From an uncultured Anaerolineales bacterium (lineage in GTDB: Bacteria > Chloroflexota > Anaerolineae > Aggregatilineales > Aggregatilineaceae): a stretch of DNA of 32,115 nt. The first letter of the stretch is position 1, and each line of letters begins with the position of its first letter. A program made the translations under genes and the position numbers. Below the pieces are notes generated by a model, which did no database searches, was not told the origin of the DNA, and saw only the letters and a list, made by a program, of their open reading frames with translations. This document shows positions 1,789-32,115 of the stretch, piece by piece. The DNA lies in contig CAKZOB010000090.1 of assembly GCA_937135955.1 (NCBI GenBank), positions 1 through 32,115 on the forward strand, given 5' to 3'.

Positions 1789-3447
1789 CTAGATGGTGAA
1801 TCTGAAATACGACCAGGGCGACCACGCGCAGGCTTGCCCGTCAACCGTCGCCCGCACGCGCCACCTGCCGCGCTGCATTCCCACGAAATTGAAATCGAAC
1901 TTGGTGCCGATCAGGTTGTGCTGGATGAAGAAACTCTGGCCGGTGGCCTCGGCCCATTTGCCGCCATTGACTGCGCCAAAGGCGTCTATCTCGATGCTGT
2001 AACGCACCACGCCGGGGACGTTCACCGGCTCCCAGCGGAACTGCAACCTGCGCGGCCAGTGATCGAAAGTGTCTTCTGGCTGCGGATGGGTCAACTGAGG
2101 CACTGCACCTTTCCACCAGTTGAGCGTGGGGTCGCCCAGCAAGGCCAAGCCATAGTGCCAGAAGATTTCGCCCTCGTCGTGACTGGGGCCGCGAGCCTTC
2201 CACCAGTCTACCAGGGCATCGCCAATAGGCTTGCCCCAGCCCATGGGGCGATAGAAATCTTCGAAGAACAACATAGACCCCGTCTTGGCGCTGGCGACGG
2301 CGGTCAGCCCCATGTTGGTACCCCCGCCCCCCTTATCGAAGATGTACCATCCGCCCAGATAGTCTGTAGACGTGAAGCGGCCCGGCCCGCAGCAGAATAG
2401 ATTGTAGAAGTGAGCGTTGGGCGGGTTGGTATCGCGGAAATAGGTGACGTCAATGTATTCGTCGCCGCTCCCGACGCGCAGAGCGTGCCCCTGCGTCCAC
2501 GAATGGGCGCAGAGCTGCACCCACGAGCGCAGTGTACTGACTTCGGCCTTGTACAGGTCTGCGTCAGTGGTCATGGGGTCTGTATATTTGGTGATGACGG
2601 ACGAGGGGAACATCTCATCGAATGCGCAGTCGTCGAAACCCGTCCAATCGTCATCCACATAGGCCAGCGCCGAGCGAGCATGGCCCAGTTGCCCCAGGCG
2701 GAACTTGTGATTGCGCGCGAAATAGTCATTGAGCAACGCCACGTCTCTGCCATTGGCCGTCGGCGTCCACAGGCGTCCGATCCAGATTTCCGGGTTGACG
2801 TTACCGTTGTGCCCGTTGAAGCGACCGTCTTTGTCCGGGTCTGTCCACACGCCGTCTGTGTCCATATAGTAGAGATCGCACGGGAACTGATCGCCATTCA
2901 GGTCGAACCAGGGAACAGGGATGGCTCCAACCAGCAATGCTCCCACCGGCTTCTTGTTCTTGATGAAGGAACGCACCTGCTGCGGTGTACCACCGTTCAC
3001 CGTATACACGACCGCCCAGTAACCATCGCGGCCCACATCCAGCACATACTGGTCAATGCTGGCGGCCACGCTGTCATAGATGGCGGCATCAACCAGCACG
3101 AGCATCTTGCCTTTGGGGTAGAGATACCATTTGTAAGTGTTGCGATAGGCCTCGTCTGGGGGATAGGAAGGGCGCGGCTTCTCGGCGAAATTGAATATTG
3201 GCTTGAAGATCTCCCCGTACTGAGCGCGAAAGTCCTTGAACGTCTGGATAGCAACCCGCCGTTCGGAGCGGAATTCGAGATTGCGCACGCTACGATACGC
3301 CCGGCCAAGCTTGTAGCTGCGCTCCATGACGTCGAGGTTGAAGAGCGTTCGTTCCCCTTCAATACGAGTGCGGACAAAGTGTTGGGGCTGGAACTTCTGG
3401 CGTTTGGCACGTGCTTCTGGCAACTTGGAAGATTGCGAGCGAGCCAT
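1789..3447 (-). CDS. Gingipain/C25-like caspase-fold cysteine peptidase with C-terminal beta domain
   Basis: 552 residues. The order of a His-containing motif (CAHSWTQGHAL, His315) followed about 37 residues later by a Cys motif (NLFCCGPGRF, Cys352/Cys353), with a downstream YGLALLGDPTLNWW block (432-445), matches the clan CD C25 peptidase layout. The GDPTL block is a hallmark of C25-like proteins. Residues 203-213 (DPDKDGRFNGH) resemble an EF-hand-type calcium loop. After residue 450 a Fn3-like beta domain follows (P-rich start, RLQFRWEPV, Trp-rich end). No signal peptide is visible: the N-terminus is basic and polar, unlike secreted gingipains. The ATG at 3447 has AGGAG about 8 nt upstream and a strong promoter. 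Monocistronic. Protease activity is inferred from motifs only; the substrate is unknown. Confidence 0.72.
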   Translation of the reverse strand: MARSQSSKLPEARAKRQKFQPQHFVRTRIEGERTLFNLDVMERSYKLGRAYRSVRNLEFRSERRVAIQTFKDFRAQYGEIFKPIFNFAEKPRPSYPPDEAYRNTYKWYLYPKGKMLVLVDAAIYDSVAASIDQYVLDVGRDGYWAVVYTVNGGTPQQVRSFIKNKKPVGALLVGAIPVPWFDLNGDQFPCDLYYMDTDGVWTDPDKDGRFNGHNGNVNPEIWIGRLWTPTANGRDVALLNDYFARNHKFRLGQLGHARSALAYVDDDWTGFDDCAFDEMFPSSVITKYTDPMTTDADLYKAEVSTLRSWVQLCAHSWTQGHALRVGSGDEYIDVTYFRDTNPPNAHFYNLFCCGPGRFTSTDYLGGWYIFDKGGGGTNMGLTAVASAKTGSMLFFEDFYRPMGWGKPIGDALVDWWKARGPSHDEGEIFWHYGLALLGDPTLNWWKGAVPQLTHPQPEDTFDHWPRRLQFRWEPVNVPGVVRYSIEIDAFGAVNGGKWAEATGQSFFIQHNLIGTKFDFNFVGMQRGRWRVRATVDGQACAWSPWSYFRFTI

Positions 3448-10177: not shown

Positions 10178-11680
10178 TCAGGAGGCTGCCGCTGTGCGCC
10201 GACGTCCCTGATGCAGGTAGAGACCGCCCAGCCGCAACCAGATCGCCGCCGCCGCCACCAGCCCCAGGACGAAACCGAGCCACACCGAAGCGTCGTCCAG
10301 CGGCGTCGTCTTCAGGTAGAGCATGAACAGCAACCCCAGGTACAGCCACAGCGACAGCGCCGAAGTAACGGCACTGGCGCGCACGCGCCGCCCGATCCGC
10401 TCGACATCTACCATGAAAGGCAGGTTGATGGCGATCAGCGCCAGCGACAACAGGGAGACCAGCGTAGCCGTCACAAAAACGCTGCCGTTTTGCTCGTCGG
10501 TGCCCAGCCCTTTGAACACGTCTACTCCTGGCCCCCAGTCCGTGCCCAGGTTCTTGAAGCCATCCGGCGACGAGAACATGCTAAGGCCGATAATCAGGCC
10601 GAACACGGCGATCATGGCCATGAACATGTGCAGCACGCTGATCCACTGAATGGCCCGCCAGAAGGAGGCGTCGAACTGCTCGCCCTCGGCAGAGCGTAGC
10701 TGCCGCACGCGCACCGTGAGCTGATTCTGCAGCGCATAGATGACCAGCGCCATCACCGTCGCTATATAGGGCAACATCTGCGGTAGTTGCGACGGGATGT
10801 CCAGCGACCCCACGCGGTTAGAGAGCGCGTCGAAGAAGCCGAAGATGAGCGCGGCGAAGCCGGTACCGATCGGGTTGCCGCCGCCCAGGTAGGGCGTCGC
10901 CAGGGCAATGAAACCGCGTCCGGCGGTCATGTTGGCCTGGAAGAAGGTCAGGTAGCCCATGCTCATATGGATGCCGCCCAGCCCGGCCAGAATGCCGCTG
11001 AGCACCAGCGCCAGATAGCGCACGCGCTCCACGCGGATGCCTACCGAGGCCGCCGCCTGCGGGTTATGGCCTACGGCGCGCAGGTGAATGCCTGTCGGCG
11101 TGCGGTACAGGAAATACCACACCAGCCCCACGGCGATGAAGGCGATCCAGGTCATCACGCTCTGGTTGTCGAAGATGCCAAAGAAGAACGACACCACCGG
11201 AATCCTATCCAGGAAGTCCGGCAACTGGATGAAGGGCATCTTCAGGCTATCCAGGCTGCCCTTGGTGTTGCCGCGGTCGCCGGTCAGCTCGAACATCACC
11301 GCCACCGTGCCCGCCTGCCCCAGGAAGTTGATGGCAATGCCGGAGAGAATCAGGTTGGCCTTGAGCCTGAGATGGAAGAAGCCCAGCAACAAGGCCGTCA
11401 GAATGCCCATCAACACGCCCATTGCCAGGCCCAGCCAGGGGCCGATGGCCTCCCCCGTAGACGCGCCCCACCATTGCTGGGCATAGGCGCTGAAGGCCAC
11501 GCCGGTGAAGGCCGAGATGAGCATAGTCCCTTCCAGGCCGATGTTGATCACGCCCGCCCGGTCGGAGATCAGCGCGCCGAGCGAAGGTAACAGGATCGGC
11601 GTCGTCACCCGCAGGATAGAGGCCAGAAACGCCGAACTGAAAATCCCCTCCAGGACGTTTTGAAACAGGCTGCTATCCAC
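10178..11680 (-). CDS. ABC nucleoside transporter permease 2 with four-helix C-terminal extension, GTG start
   Basis: 500 residues; family members are usually about 300-320. Residues 1-325 are a BPD_transp_2 permease: SLGALISDRAGVINIGLEGTM (34-53), RLKANLILSGIAINFLG, TPTGIHLRAVGHNPQAAASVGI (195-216, the cytoplasmic coupling loop) and GRGFIALATPYLGGGNPIG. Such subunits pair with a paralogous permease to import nucleosides. Residues about 330-500 are extra, with four more membrane segments (about 345-368, 402-423, 440-457, 465-485), and match nothing I recognise. The GTG at 11680 has a perfect AAGGAGGTGG site (11693-11684) and overlaps the stop of permease 1 by 8 nt. Confidence 0.9.
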   Translation of the reverse strand: MDSSLFQNVLEGIFSSAFLASILRVTTPILLPSLGALISDRAGVINIGLEGTMLISAFTGVAFSAYAQQWWGASTGEAIGPWLGLAMGVLMGILTALLLGFFHLRLKANLILSGIAINFLGQAGTVAVMFELTGDRGNTKGSLDSLKMPFIQLPDFLDRIPVVSFFFGIFDNQSVMTWIAFIAVGLVWYFLYRTPTGIHLRAVGHNPQAAASVGIRVERVRYLALVLSGILAGLGGIHMSMGYLTFFQANMTAGRGFIALATPYLGGGNPIGTGFAALIFGFFDALSNRVGSLDIPSQLPQMLPYIATVMALVIYALQNQLTVRVRQLRSAEGEQFDASFWRAIQWISVLHMFMAMIAVFGLIIGLSMFSSPDGFKNLGTDWGPGVDVFKGLGTDEQNGSVFVTATLVSLLSLALIAINLPFMVDVERIGRRVRASAVTSALSLWLYLGLLFMLYLKTTPLDDASVWLGFVLGLVAAAAIWLRLGGLYLHQGRRRTAAAS

Positions 11681-13852
11681 CTGCCACCTCCTTAGCCGGA
11701 GTAGGTTCGCCCACCTTTTGTGCCTCCAATAACTCCAGTTCCACCGTCCCGCGCCGCCGGATGCGCCGCCGCTGCAAGAACGAGACCAGCGCCTCCGCCG
11801 TGATCAGCAGGATGACCACCGCCTGAATGATGCGCACCACTTCCTGGCTGATGTTGGCGTCGCGCTCCATCACCTGCGCGCCGGTGCGCAGGTAGGTATA
11901 GAGCAGGCCGGTGAAAGGCACCACCAGCGGGTTGTTGCGGGCCAACAGGGCCACCACCACACCTTCGAATGCCAGGCCCAGCGAGATGTTGAGGATCAGC
12001 TTGCGGTGCACGCCCATAGCCAGGTGCGCCCCCGCCAACCCGGCCACGGCTCCGCTGATGGCCATGGCCAGCATGATCGTGCGGCGCGTGTTGACGCCCC
12101 CGTAGGCGGCAAACTTGATGTTCGCGCCGATCATGCGAATCTCGTAGCCGATCGGCGTGCGCTGAATCAGCAGCCAGGTGATCACCACCAGCGCGATCAG
12201 CAGATACACGGCAATGGTCAACTGATCACCGCTGATATCCACGATGGGGGTCAGCAGACCATTGGGCGGAATCCAGTCCGAAGCGATGTAACCGGCGTCG
12301 GCGGGCTTGAGTTGCCAGGTGAGCACCATCTCGTAGAAGCGGGTGGCGATGGTGTTGAGCATCAGCGTGGAGACAAGCTCGTTCGCGCCCAGGTAGGCTT
12401 TCAGCACGCCAGGCAACAGCCCCCACAGAAAGCCCGCCGTCGCTGCCGAAAGCAGAGCGATGGGCACCAGCAATGCTTTGGGCGCATCGCCAAACGACAA
12501 ACCGATCACGCCCGACACCAGCGCGCCGAAATAGAGCTGCCCTTCTGCTCCCAGGCTGAATTGCTCGGCGCGGAAGACAATGGCAATCGCCAGGCCGAGC
12601 ATGATCAGCGTCAGCGCGTCGCGCACCCAGATCAGCCAGCGGTTGAGGCGGCTGAGCGGACCGAGCAGGAAGGCGTTGTAGGCTTTGTTGGTGGCCTTGA
12701 ACGTCTCGCTCAGCTTGGTGGCAGTGGTGATCGGTTCCGGCTGCACCCGCACGGTGTAGGTGCCATCGGCGGGCAGGGTGATGTTCTGGATCACCGCATC
12801 GCGCGTGCTCTTGAGGTCGGGTGCGAAGAGCGCGACCTGATCGGCTGTCGCGTCGTTGTTCGCGCCGATTTCCGTCCCGTCGGGCGCGAGCAACGACACC
12901 TGCACGTCCACGTCAATATTGGGGCGCGCCGCATAAGCCAGCACTGAGACCACGTCGCCCGCCCTGCCAATGAAGTCGTATTGCGCCTGTTTGAGCGGTT
13001 CGGCAACCTTCGGCGCGTTGAAGGTAGCGCCCACAGGGGGGCTGTTATAAGACAGGCCCACCGATGGCTTGGCATCGGAGAGCAGCGTCACGCCGAAAGC
13101 GCCTTGCACGCCGGCGCTTGCGCCTTCCGGCTCCGCCACGATGGTATACAGACCATCCGCGGGCAATACGAAGTCCTTGATGACCGCGTCCTTCTCGCTC
13201 TTCAGGTACTCGTCGTATTGCCGCAGGAAGCGGCGGGTCGCCTCGTTGCCGCTGGTGAGCACTTCCCCGTCCGGCCCCAGCAACGAGACCTGCAGGTCAA
13301 GGTCGGAGTCGGCTTCGGCAGCGTAGGCCAGGATGGTCACCTCATGGCCCGCGCCTCCGGCAAACGTGTACTCGGCTTTGGTCAGCGGCTGCGCGTCGGC
13401 AGGGTTATTGAACTCCCCCTGTAGCGAATCGCCATAGCTCAGGTCGAGCGGCGAGGGGGCATCGGAGCGTATCTTTACCTGAAATTCGCCCTGGATGAAG
13501 CGGTTGGCGGCGTCCAGGTTGAAGAAAGCCGTCATCAGATACCCGAAGATCAGCGCCACGGCCACCGTCAGCAGGACGCGCAGCGCATCAACGCGCAACT
13601 GCACCACCAGCAGCAGCACACTGACGCCCACCAGCACATTGACCAGCAGCACGCTCAGGTAGTTGGGCGTGGCCTGGATGGCATCGCGCATCTCGCCAGG
13701 CGACATGCCCACGCTCAGGCCGTAAGTCTTGTAGCTCACCAGCACCAGGATGAGCAGGCTACAGAGTGCGCCGATGACGTACAACCACGCTATACGGCGC
13801 AGAAAGGGGCGGCCTGCCTGTCCGGTGAATTTGGAGGAAGATGCCCGTGAGG

Positions 13853-13856
<4 letters not shown>
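11673..13856 (-). CDS. ABC nucleoside transporter permease 1 with two inserted PPC-like domains
   Basis: 727 residues, about twice the family length. Three N-terminal membrane segments (about 24-42, 66-87, 93-113) are followed by a long soluble stretch. It holds two tandem similar beta domains (about 130-262 and 266-375) with parallel features: YTFAGGAGHEVTILAYAAEADSD versus YDFIGRAGDVVSVLAYAARPNID, DLQVSLLGPDG versus DVQVSLLAPDG, and VLPADGLYTI versus TLPADGTYTV. This is the PPC (bacterial pre-peptidase C-terminal) pattern. The BPD_transp_2 core resumes at about 405 (RDALTLIMLGLAIAIVFRAEQFSLGAEGQ shortened here to its key SLGAEGQ, 434-440), with TPIGYEIRMIGANIKFAAYGG as coupling loop (567-587). 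The insert should face outside. The ATG overlaps the ATPase stop as ATGA. Confidence 0.88.
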
Positions 13857-15400
<1,544 letters not shown>

Positions 15401-15542
15401 GGGCAACTCCACATACCAGCAAGGGGAGGCAATAGACGAACGCGCCAGACAAGAGGCAGCAATGAGGGGTAGAGCGCGCCGTAAGGGTAGCCTGTGAGGG
15501 ATTGCTAAGCCAATCAATCATGGCTCTGTGTACAGCTTGATA

Positions 15543-15595: not shown

Positions 15596-16768
15596 CTACT
15601 TGAGATACTCCGACGGATCGAAGTCGGTTGCGGGCATCTCGCTGCAAGGCAAACCTACCTCGGCCAGGTTGTAGCCCAGGTCGAGACGATCCTCGAAGAC
15701 GGTGTTGATGGTGATCTCGCCGTTGAGCACGGCCTCGGTTACCGCGTCAATCAGGTCGAGGATGTTCTCCGGCGTGTTGTCGAAGTAGATGTCGTTCTGG
15801 GCCAGGCCCACGCCACCTTCGGCAATGCCCAACACCTCGGCCTGCCCGAAGACCAACTCGCCCTTCAGGAACAGATCAATGGCGCGGTAGAGCGAGTTGT
15901 CCACGTTCTTCAACATGCTGGTCAGGATGTGCTGTGCCTGATCGGGGTCTGTATCCTGGATGATCAACGCCTGGTCGGAGTCCACACCAATGGCGTAACG
16001 ACCCTGCTCCTGGGCCGCCTCGAAGACGCCTACACCCGTGCCGCCCGCGATCTGGAAGACGATATCGGCCTTCTGCTCATACATGGCCAGGGCGATTTCC
16101 TTACCCTTGGCCGGGTCGTTCCAGCCACCGGCGTACTGCACAATGCGCTGTACATTCGGATTCACCAGGCACGCGCCCTGTTCGTAGCCGACCACGAAGT
16201 CATTGATGACGGGGATGTCCTGCCCGCCGATCGCGCCGATGACGGCTTCGGGGTTCGTCCCTTCCAGGCCGCTGGTGGTGATCGCCCCCGCGTAGACGCC
16301 CGCCAGGAACGAGCCTTCGTTCTGGGCGTAGAGCACCGAATAGACGTTCTTGCAGCCCTCTACGCAGAACTCCGGATTGTCGTAGGGCACCGCATCGTCG
16401 AAGAAGATGAAGTACTTGTCAGGATAGAGGTGGACACGCTTGGCCAGGAACTCGCCCATCTGGAATGTGCCAACGATCAGCACATCGTAGTTCTCCACGT
16501 CGGCCATGGCGTCGCCCAGGCCGCTCTCCCACCCCGCCGGGTCAATGCCCAGCTCGATGGTGTTGACCTGGATGTTGTAGCCATCGTTGATCAGGTTGTC
16601 CATGCCACGCTGGGCCGAGTCGAAGAAGGACTTATCGCCAAGCACGCCGTTGATCACCAGGGTGATCCGCAGCGGCTGGTCCTGGGCGGTAGTGGAAGAA
16701 ACTCCTACCAGGGCCGTCAAGGCCATCACCAATACCAGTATAAGCGTTAGCAACTTCGGGCGGGTCAT
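15596..16768 (-). CDS. BMP-family substrate-binding protein of nucleoside ABC transporter
   Basis: 390 residues from the ATG at 16768, with AGGAG 7-8 nt upstream; in-frame sequence up to 16849 lies within the promoter leader. A Sec signal peptide spans about 1-28 (TRPK, hydrophobic core, then SSTTAQD). There is no lipobox Cys, unlike many BMP lipoproteins, so anchoring is unclear. The mature part starts with the BMP motif LVINGVLGDKSFFDSAQRGM (37-56); AGVYAGAI, GQDIPVINDFVVGYEQGA, QIAGGTGVGVFEAAQEQG and AIGVDSDQA also fit the family, whose members bind purine and pyrimidine nucleosides. First gene of the salvage run, with a near-consensus promoter and its own terminator. Confidence 0.94.
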   Translation of the reverse strand: MTRPKLLTLILVLVMALTALVGVSSTTAQDQPLRITLVINGVLGDKSFFDSAQRGMDNLINDGYNIQVNTIELGIDPAGWESGLGDAMADVENYDVLIVGTFQMGEFLAKRVHLYPDKYFIFFDDAVPYDNPEFCVEGCKNVYSVLYAQNEGSFLAGVYAGAITTSGLEGTNPEAVIGAIGGQDIPVINDFVVGYEQGACLVNPNVQRIVQYAGGWNDPAKGKEIALAMYEQKADIVFQIAGGTGVGVFEAAQEQGRYAIGVDSDQALIIQDTDPDQAQHILTSMLKNVDNSLYRAIDLFLKGELVFGQAEVLGIAEGGVGLAQNDIYFDNTPENILDLIDAVTEAVLNGEITINTVFEDRLDLGYNLAEVGLPCSEMPATDFDPSEYLK

Positions 16769-16819
16769 TTGCCATCTCCTGATGAACTCGTAAAATCTGT
16801 TACCCAAGGGGTTGCTCCC

Positions 16820-16849
16820 AATATACCCTGAGGCCAGGAACGATGTCAA
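16820..16849 (-). promoter_or_regulatory. Main promoter of the nucleoside transport/salvage run
   Basis: On the minus strand, consensus TTGACA (16849-16844) and TATATT (16825-16820) are 18 bp apart. The leader to the ATG at 16768 is about 45 nt and contains the AGGAG site. It is the strongest promoter match in the window. Confidence 0.75.
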
Positions 16850-17339: not shown

Positions 17340-18272
17340 ATGCGGCTGATCATAGATACCGATGCCGGTGTAGACGACGCCCAGGCGATCCTGATGGCGC
17401 TGGCTCATCCTGGGGTCACCGTCGAAGCCATCACCACGGTCACCGGCAACACCCATGTAGACTGGGTGATCCGCAACGTGTTCACAGTGCTGAGTCTCAA
17501 AGGCGTGCGCGTGCCTGTGTATCGCGGCGCGGCCTCGCCCTTGGTGCCCGGCTTCTGGCAACCGGAAGTGCGCGTACACGGCGAAGATGGCCTGGGCAAT
17601 TACCGCAATCGCCCTGCCGAATACCCGCCCACCGAACCCGAACCCGCAGCCGTGGCCCTGGTGCGGCTGGCCGACGCAGCCCCCGGCGAACTGACGTTGG
17701 TGGCGCTCGGCCCGCTGACCAATGTAGCGCTCGCCTGTCGGCTCGATCCCGATTTCCCTCGCAAGATCGGGCGCTTCGTCTTCATGGGGGGCACCATCGC
17801 CGCCAAAGGCAACACCGCGCCGCACATCACCGCCGAATTCAACATTCACTGCGACCCCGAAGCGGCGCTGATCGTCCTGGAAGCCTTCCCGCTGGCGACC
17901 ATGCTCTCGTGGGAGACCACGCTTTACCACCCCTTTAGCTGGGCACAGTACGACGCGCTGATTGCTCAGGACTCGGCGGCGGCGCGCTTCGTCGCCGACA
18001 CCACGCGCGAGACGATCTCCTTTTTGCGTCAGCATCCGCGCGTCCCCGGTTACCTGCTGCCCGACCCCCTGGCCATGGCCATCGCGCTCGACCCCGACCT
18101 GATCCACGCCCACGAACAGCACTATGTGGCCGTTGAGGTACAGGGTCGGCAGACGCGCGGGCAGACGGTGGTGGATTATTTCGGTCTGCTGGGGCGCGCC
18201 CCCAACGTAGACGTGGTGACCGACGTGAACATGGCGGGCGTCTATGAACTGTTCCGCCGTGCCGTGAGTTAG
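17340..18272 (+). CDS. Inosine-uridine-type nucleoside hydrolase (third paralogue)
   Basis: 310 residues. The calcium signature DTDAGVDD (6-13), GEDGLGNY (81-88), [14 protein letters not shown] (122-135), FVFMGGTIAAKGN and EFNIHCDPEAAL (166-177) are typical IUNH blocks. The late motif GYLLPDPLAMAIALDP (237-252) has Pro241 before the calcium ligand Asp242, as in the paralogue at 4685 and unlike the His-containing one at 5700. It should hydrolyse a nucleoside or related riboside. The ATG at 17340 has GAGGGTG about 8 nt upstream. It heads a plus-strand unit divergent from the transporter run and is followed after 15 nt by an M42 peptidase gene. Confidence 0.93.
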   Translation: MRLIIDTDAGVDDAQAILMALAHPGVTVEAITTVTGNTHVDWVIRNVFTVLSLKGVRVPVYRGAASPLVPGFWQPEVRVHGEDGLGNYRNRPAEYPPTEPEPAAVALVRLADAAPGELTLVALGPLTNVALACRLDPDFPRKIGRFVFMGGTIAAKGNTAPHITAEFNIHCDPEAALIVLEAFPLATMLSWETTLYHPFSWAQYDALIAQDSAAARFVADTTRETISFLRQHPRVPGYLLPDPLAMAIALDPDLIHAHEQHYVAVEVQGRQTRGQTVVDYFGLLGRAPNVDVVTDVNMAGVYELFRRAVS

Positions 18273-22554: not shown

Positions 22555-24918
22555 CTATTCGATGGGATAACCGGCCTGGCCCATATACGCCTCGACTTCG
22601 CCCGCCTTGGCTTTCAGGCCACTTTCGCGGAACAGGGCCAGCGCCTGCGAAAAACACTGCTGCGCCTGTACGTCATAGCCCAGCCGGTGATAGTCTTCGC
22701 CCATGGACTGTAGCGCATACGCCGTCCAGATGCGATTATCCAGATCGCGGGCGATTTGCAGCGCCTGCTGATGATGCTCAAGCGCTGCCTCACAATGTCC
22801 CAGGTCGTGCTCGGTCGAACCCAGATTCAGCAGGGCGTAGAAAAGCGTCTCTGGATCGTTGATGCGCTGCGCCAGCGCTACTTCCTCGGCGAAATAGTCG
22901 CGGGCCGCGCCGAAGTCCCCCTGCGACTGCGCATGATAGCCCTGGTGCTCCAGCACAAAGCCCAGCAGGAAACTGTCGTCGAGGGCCTTGGCGATCTCGT
23001 AGGCTGCCTGGAAATGGGCGGCTGCGCGATCGTCGCGCTGATCGGCCAGCACCTTGCCGACAGCGCACACCAGCAGCGCCTGACGATCCTGCCGCCCCAA
23101 CGTGCGCGTCAGGTCGAGAGCCTGTTGATAATGATGCAGAGCCTGGGACAGATCGCCGCGGTCGTAGAAGGCGTTGCCGCGCTTGCCCAGCAGGTAGTGC
23201 CGCACCTCGTCGCGATCCGGCCCCAGGCGTGCCGCCGCCTCGATGGCTGCATCCAGCAACTCCAGGAAATGCAGCGTATGTCCCCGCGCGGTCAGATACG
23301 ACCCGGACAGCGCCTGGATGATGGCGATCAGCGCGTCGGGCTGATTCTGCTGACGCGCGGCGTCGGCGGCCCCCAGCAGGTTATTGATTTCGGCGTCCAG
23401 GGCAGTCAGGTCGTGCTCGTGCTCGACGGCGTAGGCGCGGCATGCGGCGATCACCGCCAGCGGATCAGCGCCGCGCCCGGTCAGCACGGCCCTGGCGTAA
23501 CTGTGCGCCAGATCGTGCACCCGGTAGCAGATGGTCGCCTCTTGCAACCGGTCGGCCAGCCCGCGCCGCCCCAGTGTGATGAGCGCCTCGCGGACGCTGT
23601 CTTCGTCGCGCCCCATGTAGCGCGCCAGCAAGTCAGGAGTCGCCTGGGGAGCGAACAGCGCACCAAAGGCGAGAAAGACTTCGCGGGTCGCTTCGTCCAG
23701 GGCGTAGAGGCTGGCGGTCAGCAACTCGCTGATACTGGTGCGGCCTTCCTCGGCGAAGTCTTCCGGCATGGCCAGGGCGTGCGGGGCCGCAGCGATGCGC
23801 CGCAGCAGGTCGGCGGGGCGAATGCGATCCACCTTCAACGTCTCGCCGGCGATTTCCAGCGCGAAGGGGTGATAACCCACCTGACGGCACAGCTCGCGGG
23901 CCGCGTCGTCATCACATGGCTGGCCTGCGTGCTGACTCAGCAGGTGCAGAGCGTCGCGCGCTTCCAGCTTCCCGACCTCGATGATGTGATCTAGGGCGTA
24001 GCGCTGCCGGGCCGTGACCAGCACCGGCACTTGGCGCGGCACGGCCTTGAGCACCTGACTGAGCGCGGCTCCCTCCCACACGTCGTCCAGCACGATCAGC
24101 GATATCTGAGCATCGGTCAGCAGCCTGCGCAGGGCCTTGGCCTTCTCCGCGCCGGTGACCGTGGTCACCGCCTGCGCGTTGTCCAGCGGGCGGGCGAGCG
24201 CCTCCAGCACGGTGTCGGCGTCTTCGCTACCGACACGCACCCACAGGACCTTGCCGCGATCCTCGTCCAGCCAGGCGGCGGCTACCGCGGCAGCCAGCGC
24301 CGATTTCCCCATGCCGCCGAACCCCTGCAACAGCACGCGCGCGCCCTGTTCCAGCAGCGAGCGGACCTCGGCCCGCATGGCGTCGCGCCCGATCAGGCGA
24401 GGCGGCAGGTCGGGCAGATCGTCGCTGACTTCGGCCAGCGTCGCAGAGGTATCGCCAGGACGCCGCAGCAGCCGGTCGCGCAGCCAGACCTCGATAGATT
24501 TCCTGACCTGCTGACACAAGTCCTCGACAGTGGTGAACCACTTGGGAGTAATGCCGGAGATGACGTTGCTCTGCGCGTCGAGGAAGGCTTGCAGGCGGGG
24601 GTCGCGGCGGTCGGCGGCCACATTCTTGACGTAGATGTGCCGGTCAATGCCCCATTCCGTCGCCCGCTCGAACTCGTCCAGCGTCCATTCGCCCAGTTCG
24701 TTCCAGAACAGGCCGATGTAGAGCGCCGAGCGTTTGAGCGCGTCCAGGTAGACCTGACGGATCGAGCGATCGGTCGCCGGAGCGTCTTCCTCGAACACCC
24801 AGGCCCGCAGCGTCACCACATCGTTGCTCAGCGCGGGGATCAACTCGCGCAGCGCCTGCCGCTCGGCAGCGAGTTCCTGCATCTTGGAGCTGACGAACAC
24901 ATACAGGGGCGTGGTCAT
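22555..24918 (-). CDS. STAND NTPase: DUF4062 - NB-ARC - TPR protein
   Basis: 787 residues. Residues 5-90 are a DUF4062-type domain (YVFVSSKMQELAAERQAL, IGLFWNELGEWTLDEFERA), a TIR-like Rossmann module often found at the N-terminus of conflict proteins. The NB-ARC ATPase follows: P-loop GFGGMGKS (199-206), Walker B LIVLDDVW (274-281), VLVTARQR (299-306), a GLPLAL-like GYHPFALEI (348-356) and an MHD-like VHDLAHSYA (467-475). Residues about 570-780 are TPR units with repeated A-L-x-H-Y/H-x-Q-A-L motifs. Such proteins stay ADP-bound until the sensor repeats detect a ligand, then oligomerise; many are antiphage sensors, others transcriptional or signalling regulators. Neighbouring secreted subtilase and TolB-like genes make the biological role ambiguous. 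Confidence 0.92.
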   Translation of the reverse strand: MTTPLYVFVSSKMQELAAERQALRELIPALSNDVVTLRAWVFEEDAPATDRSIRQVYLDALKRSALYIGLFWNELGEWTLDEFERATEWGIDRHIYVKNVAADRRDPRLQAFLDAQSNVISGITPKWFTTVEDLCQQVRKSIEVWLRDRLLRRPGDTSATLAEVSDDLPDLPPRLIGRDAMRAEVRSLLEQGARVLLQGFGGMGKSALAAAVAAAWLDEDRGKVLWVRVGSEDADTVLEALARPLDNAQAVTTVTGAEKAKALRRLLTDAQISLIVLDDVWEGAALSQVLKAVPRQVPVLVTARQRYALDHIIEVGKLEARDALHLLSQHAGQPCDDDAARELCRQVGYHPFALEIAGETLKVDRIRPADLLRRIAAAPHALAMPEDFAEEGRTSISELLTASLYALDEATREVFLAFGALFAPQATPDLLARYMGRDEDSVREALITLGRRGLADRLQEATICYRVHDLAHSYARAVLTGRGADPLAVIAACRAYAVEHEHDLTALDAEINNLLGAADAARQQNQPDALIAIIQALSGSYLTARGHTLHFLELLDAAIEAAARLGPDRDEVRHYLLGKRGNAFYDRGDLSQALHHYQQALDLTRTLGRQDRQALLVCAVGKVLADQRDDRAAAHFQAAYEIAKALDDSFLLGFVLEHQGYHAQSQGDFGAARDYFAEEVALAQRINDPETLFYALLNLGSTEHDLGHCEAALEHHQQALQIARDLDNRIWTAYALQSMGEDYHRLGYDVQAQQCFSQALALFRESGLKAKAGEVEAYMGQAGYPIE

Positions 24919-27069: not shown

Positions 27070-28635
27070 TCAGGCCGATCCCTGCTGCGGCGCGTATTCT
27101 GCCCCGCCCTGACTGGTGCGGTGGAACCACATGGCCAGCAGGGTCAGGTTGCGAATCTCGTTGGCCAGTTCACGCATCATGGCCAGGCCCACCTGTGGCT
27201 TGGCATAGACCAGCGCGGCGAAGTCAGCGCGTGAGAGGGTGTAGACGGTCACGTCTTCCAGGCACCGCACACGGGTGATGTCTGGCTCATCGTCGAGCAC
27301 GCCCAGCTTGCCGAACACGTCGCCGCGGGCATAGGCCGAGAGGATCGTCTCGACCCCATCATCGTCTACGGCGCTCCATACCAGACTGCCCGTCGCCACC
27401 AGATAGAGTCTGTCGCTGGGCACCCCTGGCTCGATCACCACCTGACCGCTGCGAAACATATGCCAGTTGAGCAGCAGCGCCACGTCCTCCAGTTCGCTGT
27501 CCTGTAAGTCGTGGAAGAGCGGGTTCATGCGCAACAACGTCTTGCGACCCTCAATTTCCTGGCGCGGGGTCTGGGTGCGCCGCTCGTCCAGATGCAGGAT
27601 CAGCGCCAGCGTGGGCGTGTCCGCCCCCAGCCGCTGACTGATCTGCTGCCAGATACGGCTGTCTTCGCTGGGCAACACCGTGCGCAGCCACACCCAGGTG
27701 TAGAGGCCCATCGAACTGCGCAGGGCGCTGAGTTGTTGCTCAGTGCGCACGATCTCGCCGTCGAGATAGGCGGCCACATCCAGACGCTGGTTGAGCGCCG
27801 CGCTGCGCAACAGCATCCCCCGCCGCGCCTGCAAGACGACGTACTGCCGGATCGCTTCGGCGCGTTCGCGGTCTATGGTGCCGCGGTAACGGGCCAGCAC
27901 CTGGGCGATCTGCTGGGGGTTGGCAGCAGCCGCCAGTTCGCCCGCGCTGGTCACCTGCGCCAGTTCTGCCGCCAGGGAGCGCCGTTCCAGGCTCAGCGAA
28001 CGCTGGATGAGCAGCACGATCAGCGCCGTGCCCATCAGCCCGATGCCCAGGGCGACAATCAGCAGCGGCAATCCTTCCAGATCGAGCACCAGCTTGTTGA
28101 ACGCGGCGTGCAGGAGCATCGCCAGGGCCAGGCTGAGGCCCACGCGCTGTCGTTGCGCGCGCCGGCTCAAATACTGGCTGCTACCCGCTGCTGTGCCCAC
28201 CAGGCCGGTGACGCAGGCATGCAACAGGCTGATCGAGAGCACCCGTGTGAGGGCAATAGGCAAAGCGCGGTCGGGGTGACTGACGACGTAGTCTATATTC
28301 TCGGCCATGGCGAAGCCTGTACCAATGGCGAAGCCATAAGCCGTGCCATCTACGGTATAGGTCAGGGCCAGCCGCGCTGCCAGCGCCACGATCAACAGCG
28401 CTTTGAGCACTTCTTCGGTCACCGGCGCGCTGAGCAAGGCCACCTGCTCGAAGTTGAGGACGTTGTAGTCGAGCAGCGCGTTATGGAAGAGACTCGCCAG
28501 CCCGAAAGCTCCCACTCCCCAGGCTATCGCCAGAGCAACCACGCTCAGGCGGCTCTGGGCGTAGATTTCCAGCGCCCAGATGCCGAGCATGAAAGCCAGC
28601 GGAATCAACACCGAAATGAAGAGGCTCACCATCAT
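27070..28635 (-). CDS. PrsW-like intramembrane protease fused to a cNMP-binding-fold domain
   Basis: 521 residues from the ATG at 28635. The upstream gene stops 4 nt before it, and the open frame beyond has no homology to the family. Residues 1-210 contain seven or eight membrane segments with the PrsW pattern: EEVLKALLIV (Glu74-Glu75), AENIDYV (Glu112), LHACVTGLVGTAAG (His139) and LLHAAFN (His176). PrsW proteins are CAAX-type glutamic membrane proteases that cut anti-sigma factors or act as abortive sensors. A coiled or helical linker follows (215-365). Residues about 372-495 are a cyclic-nucleotide-binding beta roll (NPLFHDLQDSELEDV, GQVVIEPGVPSDRLYLVATGSL, GDVFGKLGVLDDEPDITRVRC). The phosphate-binding FGEL...PRxA is altered to FGKL...PDIT, so cyclic nucleotide binding is probably lost or changed. 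Membrane protease activity gated by this domain is inference. Confidence 0.85.
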   Translation of the reverse strand: MMVSLFISVLIPLAFMLGIWALEIYAQSRLSVVALAIAWGVGAFGLASLFHNALLDYNVLNFEQVALLSAPVTEEVLKALLIVALAARLALTYTVDGTAYGFAIGTGFAMAENIDYVVSHPDRALPIALTRVLSISLLHACVTGLVGTAAGSSQYLSRRAQRQRVGLSLALAMLLHAAFNKLVLDLEGLPLLIVALGIGLMGTALIVLLIQRSLSLERRSLAAELAQVTSAGELAAAANPQQIAQVLARYRGTIDRERAEAIRQYVVLQARRGMLLRSAALNQRLDVAAYLDGEIVRTEQQLSALRSSMGLYTWVWLRTVLPSEDSRIWQQISQRLGADTPTLALILHLDERRTQTPRQEIEGRKTLLRMNPLFHDLQDSELEDVALLLNWHMFRSGQVVIEPGVPSDRLYLVATGSLVWSAVDDDGVETILSAYARGDVFGKLGVLDDEPDITRVRCLEDVTVYTLSRADFAALVYAKPQVGLAMMRELANEIRNLTLLAMWFHRTSQGGAEYAPQQGSA

Positions 28636-28639
28636 GGCT

Positions 28640-29704
28640 CTACACCGCGGGGGAAGCGCTAGCGGGGTCGTCGGCCTGTTCGCAGACATGAGCGCGAAAC
28701 GCGACGCGTACCCCATCGGCCTCGGCGTCGTCCATGGCGGCGCTGATCATAGCCAGCGCCGCGCGAATCTCGGCGGCTTTGGCCTCGCCCAGGCGATATT
28801 CCAGGTAGCTGGCGAAGTCTCCTGCTGCAAACGCAGCGCTCAGAGCGTCGGCGGCGCGCTTCATGGCCCGCGGACGCACGAAGTGTCCCTGCCGCGCGAA
28901 GGGACGCACCGGCAGCCGCGCATTATAGCGCAGTGGGCTAAAGAGGTTGGGCTTGGCCACCAATTCGGCCAGCGCATCGAGTGACGGCGTTGGGGGCAGG
29001 TAGCGCGCGTCGGGCCGGAAGAGCAGCTCGCCCCGAAAGCGCAGGCGCGCCTGCCGGTCGTAGTGCGCTTGAGTCTCCGGCGGGAGCATGGCGTAGATGG
29101 TCTGCATCAGGGCCAGCGACGCCGCGTCGAGTTCCGCCTGACGCCGGTGACGATCGGCGCTCGGCGGGACAGGCGGCAGCGGCGGGCCGATGGTCACCGT
29201 CAGGCGGGGGAAGCGCAGCCGCAAGATGCGCCCCCACACCTGGTAGGTGTTGCCGAAGGCCATCGGCACAATCGCCGCCTGCGCTGCCTGCGACAGATAG
29301 GCCGCGCCGGACTTGACCGCATCAATCGGCTTTTCCCAGGTGCCACCTTCCGGAAAGATACCCAGTCGCCCGCCAGCCTGCAGGTGCGCCAGCATTTGCT
29401 TGAGGCCCTCGCGGTCTACTGCGCCGCGTTTCATCAGGATCAGCCCGGCACGGCGCACGATCCAGTTGGCGGGCCACAGCAACTCGAAATCGCCGGGGCC
29501 GACGAACACCGTATCCGGCGGCAACAGCACAAAGAGCAACAGCGCGTCGAAGGTAGAGGTATGGTTGGCCGCGTAGATGACCGGGCCGGGCACGTTCAGA
29601 TGTTCGCGCCCGCTGATACACGTGCGCGTCAACAGGCGTAGCGTGACCGCCCCCGCCAGGCGCAGCGCGCCCCGAACAATCCGTGTGCGCCGATCCAGCA
29701 TCAT
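28640..29704 (-). CDS. PlsC-type 1-acyl-glycerol-3-phosphate acyltransferase-like protein with C-terminal extension
   Basis: 354 residues. The acyltransferase core has the catalytic NHTSTFD (HX4D, His48-Asp53), the substrate-binding FVGPGDF and RRAGLILMKRG region, and FPEGGTW (117-123). It would transfer an acyl chain to a lysophospholipid or related alcohol at the inner membrane. Residues about 185-354 form an additional, mostly helical region with no family I recognise, about 110-150 residues beyond a typical PlsC. Two ATGs occur in tandem (29704 and 29701), with only a weak AAGAGA before them. The stop is 4 nt before the PrsW-like gene, so the two are an operon. A link to envelope stress is suggested by this pairing but not shown. 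Confidence 0.88.
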   Translation of the reverse strand: MMLDRRTRIVRGALRLAGAVTLRLLTRTCISGREHLNVPGPVIYAANHTSTFDALLLFVLLPPDTVFVGPGDFELLWPANWIVRRAGLILMKRGAVDREGLKQMLAHLQAGGRLGIFPEGGTWEKPIDAVKSGAAYLSQAAQAAIVPMAFGNTYQVWGRILRLRFPRLTVTIGPPLPPVPPSADRHRRQAELDAASLALMQTIYAMLPPETQAHYDRQARLRFRGELLFRPDARYLPPTPSLDALAELVAKPNLFSPLRYNARLPVRPFARQGHFVRPRAMKRAADALSAAFAAGDFASYLEYRLGEAKAAEIRAALAMISAAMDDAEADGVRVAFRAHVCEQADDPASASPAV

Positions 29705-30959: not shown

Positions 30960-32115
30960 CTAGCGGACAATGATAATGCGGCTCTGGCGCAGGGGCAGCG
31001 GCTCTTCGCGACCCGGCACAGTGCTGCTGACGCATACCCCGCTGAAGACGGCCAGCTCGGTGCACTTGGCATCGTTGTCCGTCGCGCCGAAGCCGCGCAG
31101 ATAGAGTGTGCCCTGCTCAGATTCCAGAGCGCGCCCCGGCAACCCGCCGAAACCGCCCGTTGCCGTGCCGGTGCCAGAGGGCGGCGGCGGTGTGCCGGGC
31201 ACAATCTTTAGCGTGTAGGGGCCGGTCGTCGAACCCTCGTCAAGGCCCGCCCGTGTGGCGACGATCAGATAGCTGCCGCTTTCCGGCAGCCGGATGGCAA
31301 TCTGCGCATTGGTGCCACCTCCGCTGTCGTCATCTTCGGCGATCACATTGTCGTTAGGGTCAAGAATGCCCAGGTAGGCATCCAGGCCACCCGTGCCAGT
31401 CATGGTGATGGTGATCTGCTCGCCCGCTGTGCCGGCGTATTCGTAGATGTGGAAGAACGAATCTGCGGTGATCGTGCCAGAGATGCTCGCCCCGGCTGCG
31501 ATCTCACCCATATAGGCCATGCCTGGCGGCAGTTCCTGTTGCACAGGCTCTTCCTGCACAACCGGTGTCGCACCGGGGATGCCCGCATAGAGGACGTAAG
31601 CCCCGCTGGACTTGCCCACCTCCATGCCGGAGCGTGTGGCACCAACCAGGTAGACGCCATCCTGGGGGATAGTCACCTGCACCAGGGCGTCGAACTTGCC
31701 CCCTTCGGCCTGTACGCCGCTGTCATCGTCCTCGGCCAGCACATCACCGGCTTCGGTGCCGAAAATCAGGTAGGGGTCGAGCTGGCTACCCTCTGCCGCG
31801 TACATGACCACCACGAACTCAGAGCCAGCCTGCAACTCCACCGAGTAGACCTGCGCATAAGCGGCATCATCGAGCGTGCCGGTGACCGGTTCGCCGAGCG
31901 TCAGGTCACCCATGTAGAAAACACCAGGGCTGACCTCCACGGGGCCAGTGGTCGTGGGGGAAGATACATTGGTTGGGCCGCTCCCACCCTGCAGCGTCAG
32001 GGTATAGCGACCGGTCGTGGTGCCGGTGTCCAGACCGTAGCGTGTGGCAACGATGATGAACTCTCCGCTGCCAGGCAGAGTCGTCTCGATGTAGGCATTG
32101 CCGTTGCCGCCGCTG
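30960..32115 (-). CDS. Secreted PPC-repeat protein, 5' end beyond the right edge
   Basis: The frame is open from the stop at 30960 to the window edge (about 385 codons), so start and any signal peptide are missing. Three tandem PPC-type beta domains are visible. Each has an MGDLTLGEPVTGTL-like entry, Asp-rich calcium-type loops (AEDDDSG occurs twice) and an exit such as LPESGSYLIVATRAGLDEG (compare LPGSGEFIIVATRYGLDTG at the far end). Linkers are Thr/Pro-rich (SSPTTTG; TPPPPSGTGTATGG). A C-terminal piece of about 65 residues includes Cys pairs and ends in basic SRIIIVR. PPC domains usually hold secreted enzymes or bind surfaces. No enzymatic domain is seen in this part. Same domain type as the permease insert at 11673-13856. 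Confidence 0.85.
   Translation of the reverse strand, partial: SGGNGNAYIETTLPGSGEFIIVATRYGLDTGTTTGRYTLTLQGGSGPTNVSSPTTTGPVEVSPGVFYMGDLTLGEPVTGTLDDAAYAQVYSVELQAGSEFVVVMYAAEGSQLDPYLIFGTEAGDVLAEDDDSGVQAEGGKFDALVQVTIPQDGVYLVGATRSGMEVGKSSGAYVLYAGIPGATPVVQEEPVQQELPPGMAYMGEIAAGASISGTITADSFFHIYEYAGTAGEQITITMTGTGGLDAYLGILDPNDNVIAEDDDSGGGTNAQIAIRLPESGSYLIVATRAGLDEGSTTGPYTLKIVPGTPPPPSGTGTATGGFGGLPGRALESEQGTLYLRGFGATDNDAKCTELAVFSGVCVSSTVPGREEPLPLRQSRIIIVR

Follow-up and report, generated by a model that had tools for sequence, protein, structure and literature searches.

PPC-type domains within a permease of a BMP-type ABC importer of Chloroflexota, and their possible role in binding-protein docking

Introduction

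How does a soluble binding protein find its permease, above all when it has no lipid anchor? The question is a general one for ABC importers, and it arises at a locus of an uncultured Anaerolineales bacterium, in a stretch of 32,115 nucleotides that is called the window here. A permease gene in the window carries two inserted beta domains of the PPC type, so that a binding module of a type known from secreted proteins has been recruited into the middle of a transporter and not added at its end. PPC domains are habitually extracytoplasmic. No description of such a permease with PPC domains was found in the open-licence PMC literature. What are these domains, how did they come to be there, and what might they do? 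Relatives of the importer form a graded series, with no, one or two domains in one orthologous system, and both partners of the permease have changed as well; a role for the outer domains is therefore testable by comparison and by deletion.

The importer and its operon

The minus strand encodes, in this order, a BMP binding protein, an ABC ATPase and the permeases P1 and P2 (Table 1). Each of the four scores above its own Pfam cut-off, and the set has the layout of a BMP-type nucleoside ABC importer. Downstream of P2 follow an ADP-ribosylglycohydrolase, a PfkB kinase, an Indigoidine_A/PsuG-like enzyme and two nucleoside hydrolases, and a third nucleoside hydrolase, divergent, is found at 17340-18272. 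A PsuG-like enzyme and a PfkB kinase are the customary pair of pseudouridine salvage; nucleosides, including pseudouridine, are thus the likely cargo. P1 is thus one permease subunit, P2 being the other, of a BMP-type ABC importer whose putative cargo, judging by the gene context, is nucleosides. The operon order and the adjoining salvage enzymes are shared with known BMP/PnrA-type nucleoside importers. The system described here differs in that P1 carries one or two PPC-type domains and an additional N-terminal hairpin, P2 is extended at its C-terminus and BMP ends in a C-terminal tail.

Table 1. Features of the importer locus and of two related binding-protein fusions
Feature	Position	Strand	Basis
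P1 permease gene, 727 aa, BPD_transp_2 with two inserted PPC-type domains	11673..13856	-	ORF, Pfam, AlphaFold model
P1 residues 1-121: helices 18-44 and 66-87 (extra hairpin) and 89-120	13494..13856	-	Model; alignment with relatives that have no domain
P1 PPC-type domain 1, residues 122-249	13110..13493	-	Insert profile, models, fold comparison
P1 PPC-type domain 2, residues 250-376	12729..13109	-	Pfam, profiles, model, domain tree
P1 residues 377-727: outer helix 378-402 and permease core	11676..12728	-	Pfam, alignment, model
P2 partner permease, 500 aa; core 19-310 and C-terminal extension	10178..11680	-	ORF, Pfam; extension by eye
P2 extension, about residues 330-500, mostly hydrophobic, about four helices	10181-10693	-	By eye
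ABC ATPase, two ABC_tran stretches	13853..15517	-	Pfam; true start probably near 15400 (by eye)
BMP/PnrA-type binding protein	15596..16849	-	Pfam; true start probably 16771 (by eye)
BMP C-terminal tail VGLPCSEMPATDFDPSEYLK, candidate docking element	15599..15658	-	Sequence comparison of BMPs
Salvage genes downstream of P2	4685..10034	-	Pfam
Fusion in genome G167, 1226 aa, two BMP domains and SBP_bac_3	L268:5569-9249		
Fusion in genome G179, at least 1139 aa, cut by contig end, two BMP domains and SBP_bac_3	L267:5503-8919		

The original prediction, made from the letters of the window, described a permease of about 727 residues at 11673-13856, with two similar beta domains at residues 130-375 (12730-13470) placed between N-terminal helices and the permease core. 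This description holds. The reading frame runs from 13856 to 11673 on the minus strand and encodes 727 residues, and BPD_transp_2 matches residues 410-685 with 136 bits (Pfam). In a full-length AlphaFold model (mean pLDDT 90.4, pTM 0.75), strands occupy residues 123-243 in the first domain and 252-373 in the second, both with high confidence, and the insert modelled alone reaches a pLDDT of 93.6. In the model the insert follows the third helix of P1 (residues 89-120), which we treat as the canonical first helix, and precedes the BPD_transp_2 core. A profile of the insert family, which includes the window's own row, matches the two halves separately with 212 and 142 bits, and their internal similarity thus goes beyond chance. 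A fusion of two genes by faulty assembly is ruled out, as the same architecture recurs across many genomes, in 8 further two-domain permeases, including a congener 90% identical, and in 48 one-domain permeases.

PPC-type identity of the inserted domains

Pfam PF04151 reaches 22.3 bits on P1, below its gathering cut-off of 25.9, and covers residues 315-372 in domain 2 only. Across the family it matches 10 of 50 aligned members at E <= 0.01 (12 of the 50 have no insert), with a best value of 1.2e-05. The predicted match to PF04151 therefore fell short at the plain cut-off, but a strong profile match to PPC domains of the same genome was found: when domain 2 and the single-domain orthologues were compared by hhalign with eight secreted PPC domains of that genome, the probability was 98.1, with E 6.7e-14 (reckoned for a single comparison) and 36% identity over 70 columns. 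At the level of structure, the VIA comparison (982 chains), which barely tested anything beyond model residues 16-144, i.e. domain 1, ranked two chains highest, both aligned on domain 1: the ColG collagen-binding domain 1nqj, with Z 11.5 and an rmsd of 1.9 over 94 residues, and 5sv5, named as a pre-Peptidase C-terminal Domain, with Z 11.4 and an rmsd of 1.9 over 96. The fold assignment of domain 2 rests on the insert model and on homology. No significant match was obtained with the insert profile against the sequences of solved structures (best E 0.15), nor any at 0.001 with the family profile. Foldseek with the whole P1 model gave mixed matches (best E 7.4e-4), in which the permease part resembles HmuU, PsaC and BtuC chains. 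Together, the fold of domain 1 and the profile match of domain 2 and its orthologues support the PPC-type fold that had been proposed, and the P1 domains are best described as a divergent branch of it, divergent because the plain Pfam cut-off is not reached.

What sets this branch apart? Two features of the permease family go beyond the eight secreted PPC domains of the window genome: a conserved FNxP...P loop, in whose region all of 25 rows share N280 and P287, and, before the conserved D353-A354, a short helix at 338-343.

The closest folds are binding modules of secreted enzymes, and PMC6168687 describes how a segment of a collagenase that includes a PPC domain binds collagen. The likeness to 1nqj and 5sv5 is one of fold, seen on domain 1; these are modules of secreted proteases, with 16% and 12% identity to the P1 insert. 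Might the P1 domains likewise hold a polymer of the cell wall or the extracellular space, and so fix or cluster the transporter? This we regard as quite unlikely. Among the other BPD_transp_2 permeases of the window genome none overlaps an insert-like match, and an envelope anchor would leave the tail of BMP unexplained. Chains of the pentameric channel DeCLIC come next in the VIA comparison, with Z up to 10.0, and they too show beta domains of the same fold on a membrane transport protein, there as an N-terminal addition to an ion channel, in P1 as an insert inside an ABC permease. The periplasmic domains of DeCLIC bind calcium (PMC12664993). A regulatory domain in P1 that senses calcium or another outer ligand, in the manner of the N-terminal domains of DeCLIC, is nevertheless very unlikely: the rmsd across both domains is about 15, so that only single domains superpose.

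Spread and evolutionary history

Is this architecture an isolated construct? When 121 genomes of the order were searched with the full-length permease, 105 had matches; many of these covered only the core and thus belong to paralogues. A scan of 84,980 species genomes with two patterns of the permease core yielded 95 relatives, of which the best 80 were kept; since the patterns were drawn from the core, insert carriers with a divergent core are missed. Locus L162 (a run of N) and the distant loci L181-L188 were excluded from the tree and the counts, and incomplete reading frames from the counts of P2 length and lipobox. Domain number was assigned by length, more than 690 aa standing for two domains and more than 550 aa for one, and was checked by alignment in 25 proteins and 27 inserts. 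The two-domain loci L109-L116 are the same assemblies as in the search of the order, and the counts below use the 84,980-species set, with the window where stated.

A tree of the core from 72 P1 proteins (71 loci and the window) includes nine with two domains, 48 with one and 15 with none. The domain-number labels require two changes on it, the least possible, and the two-domain set and the no-domain set each form one side of a branch, with support of 100/99 and 100/97, respectively. A PPC-type domain was gained once and subsequently duplicated once. In a tree of the domains, support of 100/100 places domain 1 among the permease domains, apart from secreted PPC domains, and domain 2 joins the single domains of relatives (97/97); the second copy thus arose within the gene. 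Insert carriers among the named loci are all titled or placed as Chloroflexota, and all two-domain permeases belong to the window's own family, which has one-domain members too.

How far does the insert reach beyond these relatives? At E <= 1e-10 the insert profile found the window genome only among 400 genomes of the phylum, a sample with few genomes of this order, so that the result bounds the spread but does not prove it narrow. The insert sequence compared with 150 genomes of the class gave weak matches outside the window gene in 10 of them, at 26-42% identity. The insert architecture of P1 is a lineage-wide variant of a known importer type and no one-off. It is also maintained: dN/dS against the 90% identical congener is 0.124 and 0.136 in the two domains and 0.025 in the core (410-685). 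Both domains are under purifying selection, yet change more quickly than the core does.

Side of the membrane

In relatives without the insert, alignment shows a short loop after the first canonical helix at the insert position. Between the insert and the P1 segment 568-585, which we take to be the cytoplasmic coupling helix of BPD_transp_2-type permeases, the model has five helices (404-429, 437-454, 460-489, 493-516 and 549-566), and with this number the insert should face outward. Helix parity in the model, counted from this presumed coupling helix, and the usual location of PPC domains thus both favour the extracytoplasmic placement that had been predicted. The insert would then lie close to the substrate entrance.

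Changes in the partner proteins

The insert does not come alone. Taken as the longest reading frames, P2 measures 424-518 aa in every one of the 52 insert carriers whose P1 and P2 are both complete, whereas the 14 loci that have no insert all show 304-343 aa; insert and P2 extension therefore arose on the same stretch of the tree. Such a pattern would be expected if the PPC domains packed on the extended P2 and fixed the heterodimer, as a module of assembly or stability that makes no contact with the binding protein. Apart from a single polar loop of some 30 residues, however, the P2 extension looks largely hydrophobic by eye, and it would offer little outer surface. It may instead pair with the extra N-terminal hairpin of P1, though relatives with no domain already have the hairpin. 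An assembly module is on this evidence a rather unlikely explanation.

The second change is in the binding protein. Among 56 insert-carrying loci a BMP lies within the covered stretch in 49 and in seven there is none; a C-terminal motif of the form VGxxCxxM[PS], defined after looking at the sequences, is present in 49 of the 49 BMPs and in none of 13 BMPs from loci without insert. Paralogous BMPs beside insert-less permeases of the same order lack it (0/6), as do nine of nine further BMP matches, one of which repeats the BMP of locus L164. What follows the motif varies, FD in 21 of the 49 (the form of the window BMP) and an acidic, methionine-rich end in 28. Only the VGxxCxxM[PS] part is general, and the tail is thus no single fixed tag. 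Nor need tail and PPC domain be partners, since a short end with a cysteine already occurs on the BMPs, likewise devoid of a lipobox, of two relatives that have no insert, L164 and G185; the cysteine may merely form a disulphide. The associations of insert, P2 length and tail all come from one clade and amount to about one event each, not to independent observations. For the two-domain congener G205, whose contig breaks off upstream, no BMP exceeding 43% identity turned up.

The missing lipobox and the BMP fusions

The signal peptide of the window BMP ends near ...TTAQ and, as had been noted originally, there is no lipobox. Could the PPC domains then be an aid to membrane retention that makes up for the missing lipid anchor? 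The counts at first seem to favour this. By a simple pattern and reading by eye rather than a trained predictor, a lipobox is present in none of 47 complete BMPs of insert carriers and in 8 of 13 without insert, the other five including two from Campylobacterota. The argument fails, however, when other binding proteins are considered. One of 35 binding-protein starts in the window genome, G000 (loci L191-L225), has a lipobox, and so do none of 15 in the no-domain genome G185 and none of 15 in the one-domain genome G203 (L226-L255 for these two genomes together). The starts cover 30 of 40 SBP_bac_1 and 5 of 5 Peripla_BP_6 matches in the window genome, two of the latter below cut-off and one of these two being the sole lipobox protein; for G185 and G203 they cover 15 of 21 and 15 of 67 SBP_bac_1 matches, respectively. 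All six paralogous BMPs beside insert-less permeases also lack it, as does the BMP of the insert-less sister L164. Loss of the lipoprotein pathway is ruled out, as Lgt is encoded in 31 of 31 genomes and LspA in 19 of 21. With most of the sampled binding proteins lacking a lipobox while the enzymes are present, the absence looks like a habit of the order and no mark of this importer, and its scarcity in the other binding proteins read leads us to reject lipobox loss as a specific cause of the insert.

A further argument comes from three one-domain relatives (L117, L136 and L166) whose operons lack a BMP. In two of them, the genomes G167 and G179, an orthologous BMP, 73 and 75% identical, is part of a fusion of several binding-protein domains (Table 1), which has a lipobox-type start (by eye) and Glu/Ala-rich linkers between the domains. 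The third genome, G211, is 87% complete and gave no BMP match at E <= 1e-15. The PPC domain is thus kept in G167 and G179, where BMP is probably lipid-anchored, and this argues against a mere retention aid, which we consider highly improbable, and for a function in contact.

Both fusions keep the CxxMP...FD part of the tail after the first BMP, and that of G167 adjoins a BPD_transp_1 permease and an ATPase-like gene. The fusion may be a single protein that serves several importers. Could the PPC domain, then, be a receptor for the tag formed by VGxxCxxM[PS] and a variable acidic end, one that recruits tagged proteins? If so, fusions of the type BMP-BMP-SBP_bac_3 would deliver cargo in trans to several transporters. 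We hold a tag receptor to be unlikely.

A possible docking platform

The best-supported reading, to which we nonetheless give a little less than an even chance, is that the PPC domains constitute a platform for docking and coupling BMP, by analogy with the P2 region of MalF. Docking of BMP was one of the two roles suggested originally, the other being a surface anchor. MalF P2 is a large periplasmic permease region (residues 91-271), a segment of which directly contacts MalE (PMC3150292). The fold, the predicted outer side, the single gain, the constraint on the domains and the co-occurring tail of BMP, kept in both fusions, count in favour of this reading. MalFGK2 resembles the present importer in having a large outer permease region and differs in belonging to another permease family; MalF P2 contacts its binding protein, and the P1 insert would, on this analogy, contact BMP. 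How might such a platform have evolved? An ancestral permease of one Chloroflexota lineage acquired a PPC-type beta-sandwich where its first canonical helix meets the outer face, and the inserted domain was later duplicated inside the gene. On the outer face the domains would dock BMP and couple it to the permease, as MalF P2 does the maltose-binding protein, and the platform might hold the C-terminal tail of BMP. Several observations count against a docking role: the order has further BMP importers that do without domains of this kind, the dN/dS of the domains, at 0.12-0.14, exceeds the 0.025 of the core, the tail of BMP is variable, and seven insert-carrying loci show no BMP in the covered stretch.

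Other genes

Elsewhere in the window, a separate protein at 30960-31940 has a clear PPC domain (51.4 bits). The gene at 22555-24918 encodes a DUF4062 - NB-ARC - TPR protein with the layout of a STAND-type NTPase, and that at 27070-28716 a cyclic-nucleotide-binding domain joined to a PrsW-type intramembrane protease. A peptidase C25 match at 1789-3447 reaches 27.2 bits against a cut-off of 23. In G167, a BPD_transp_1 permease of 669 aa (L268:9407-11416) has its Pfam match at residues 480-666 only, with several hundred unmatched residues before it, and is possibly another permease of the lineage with a large extra region.
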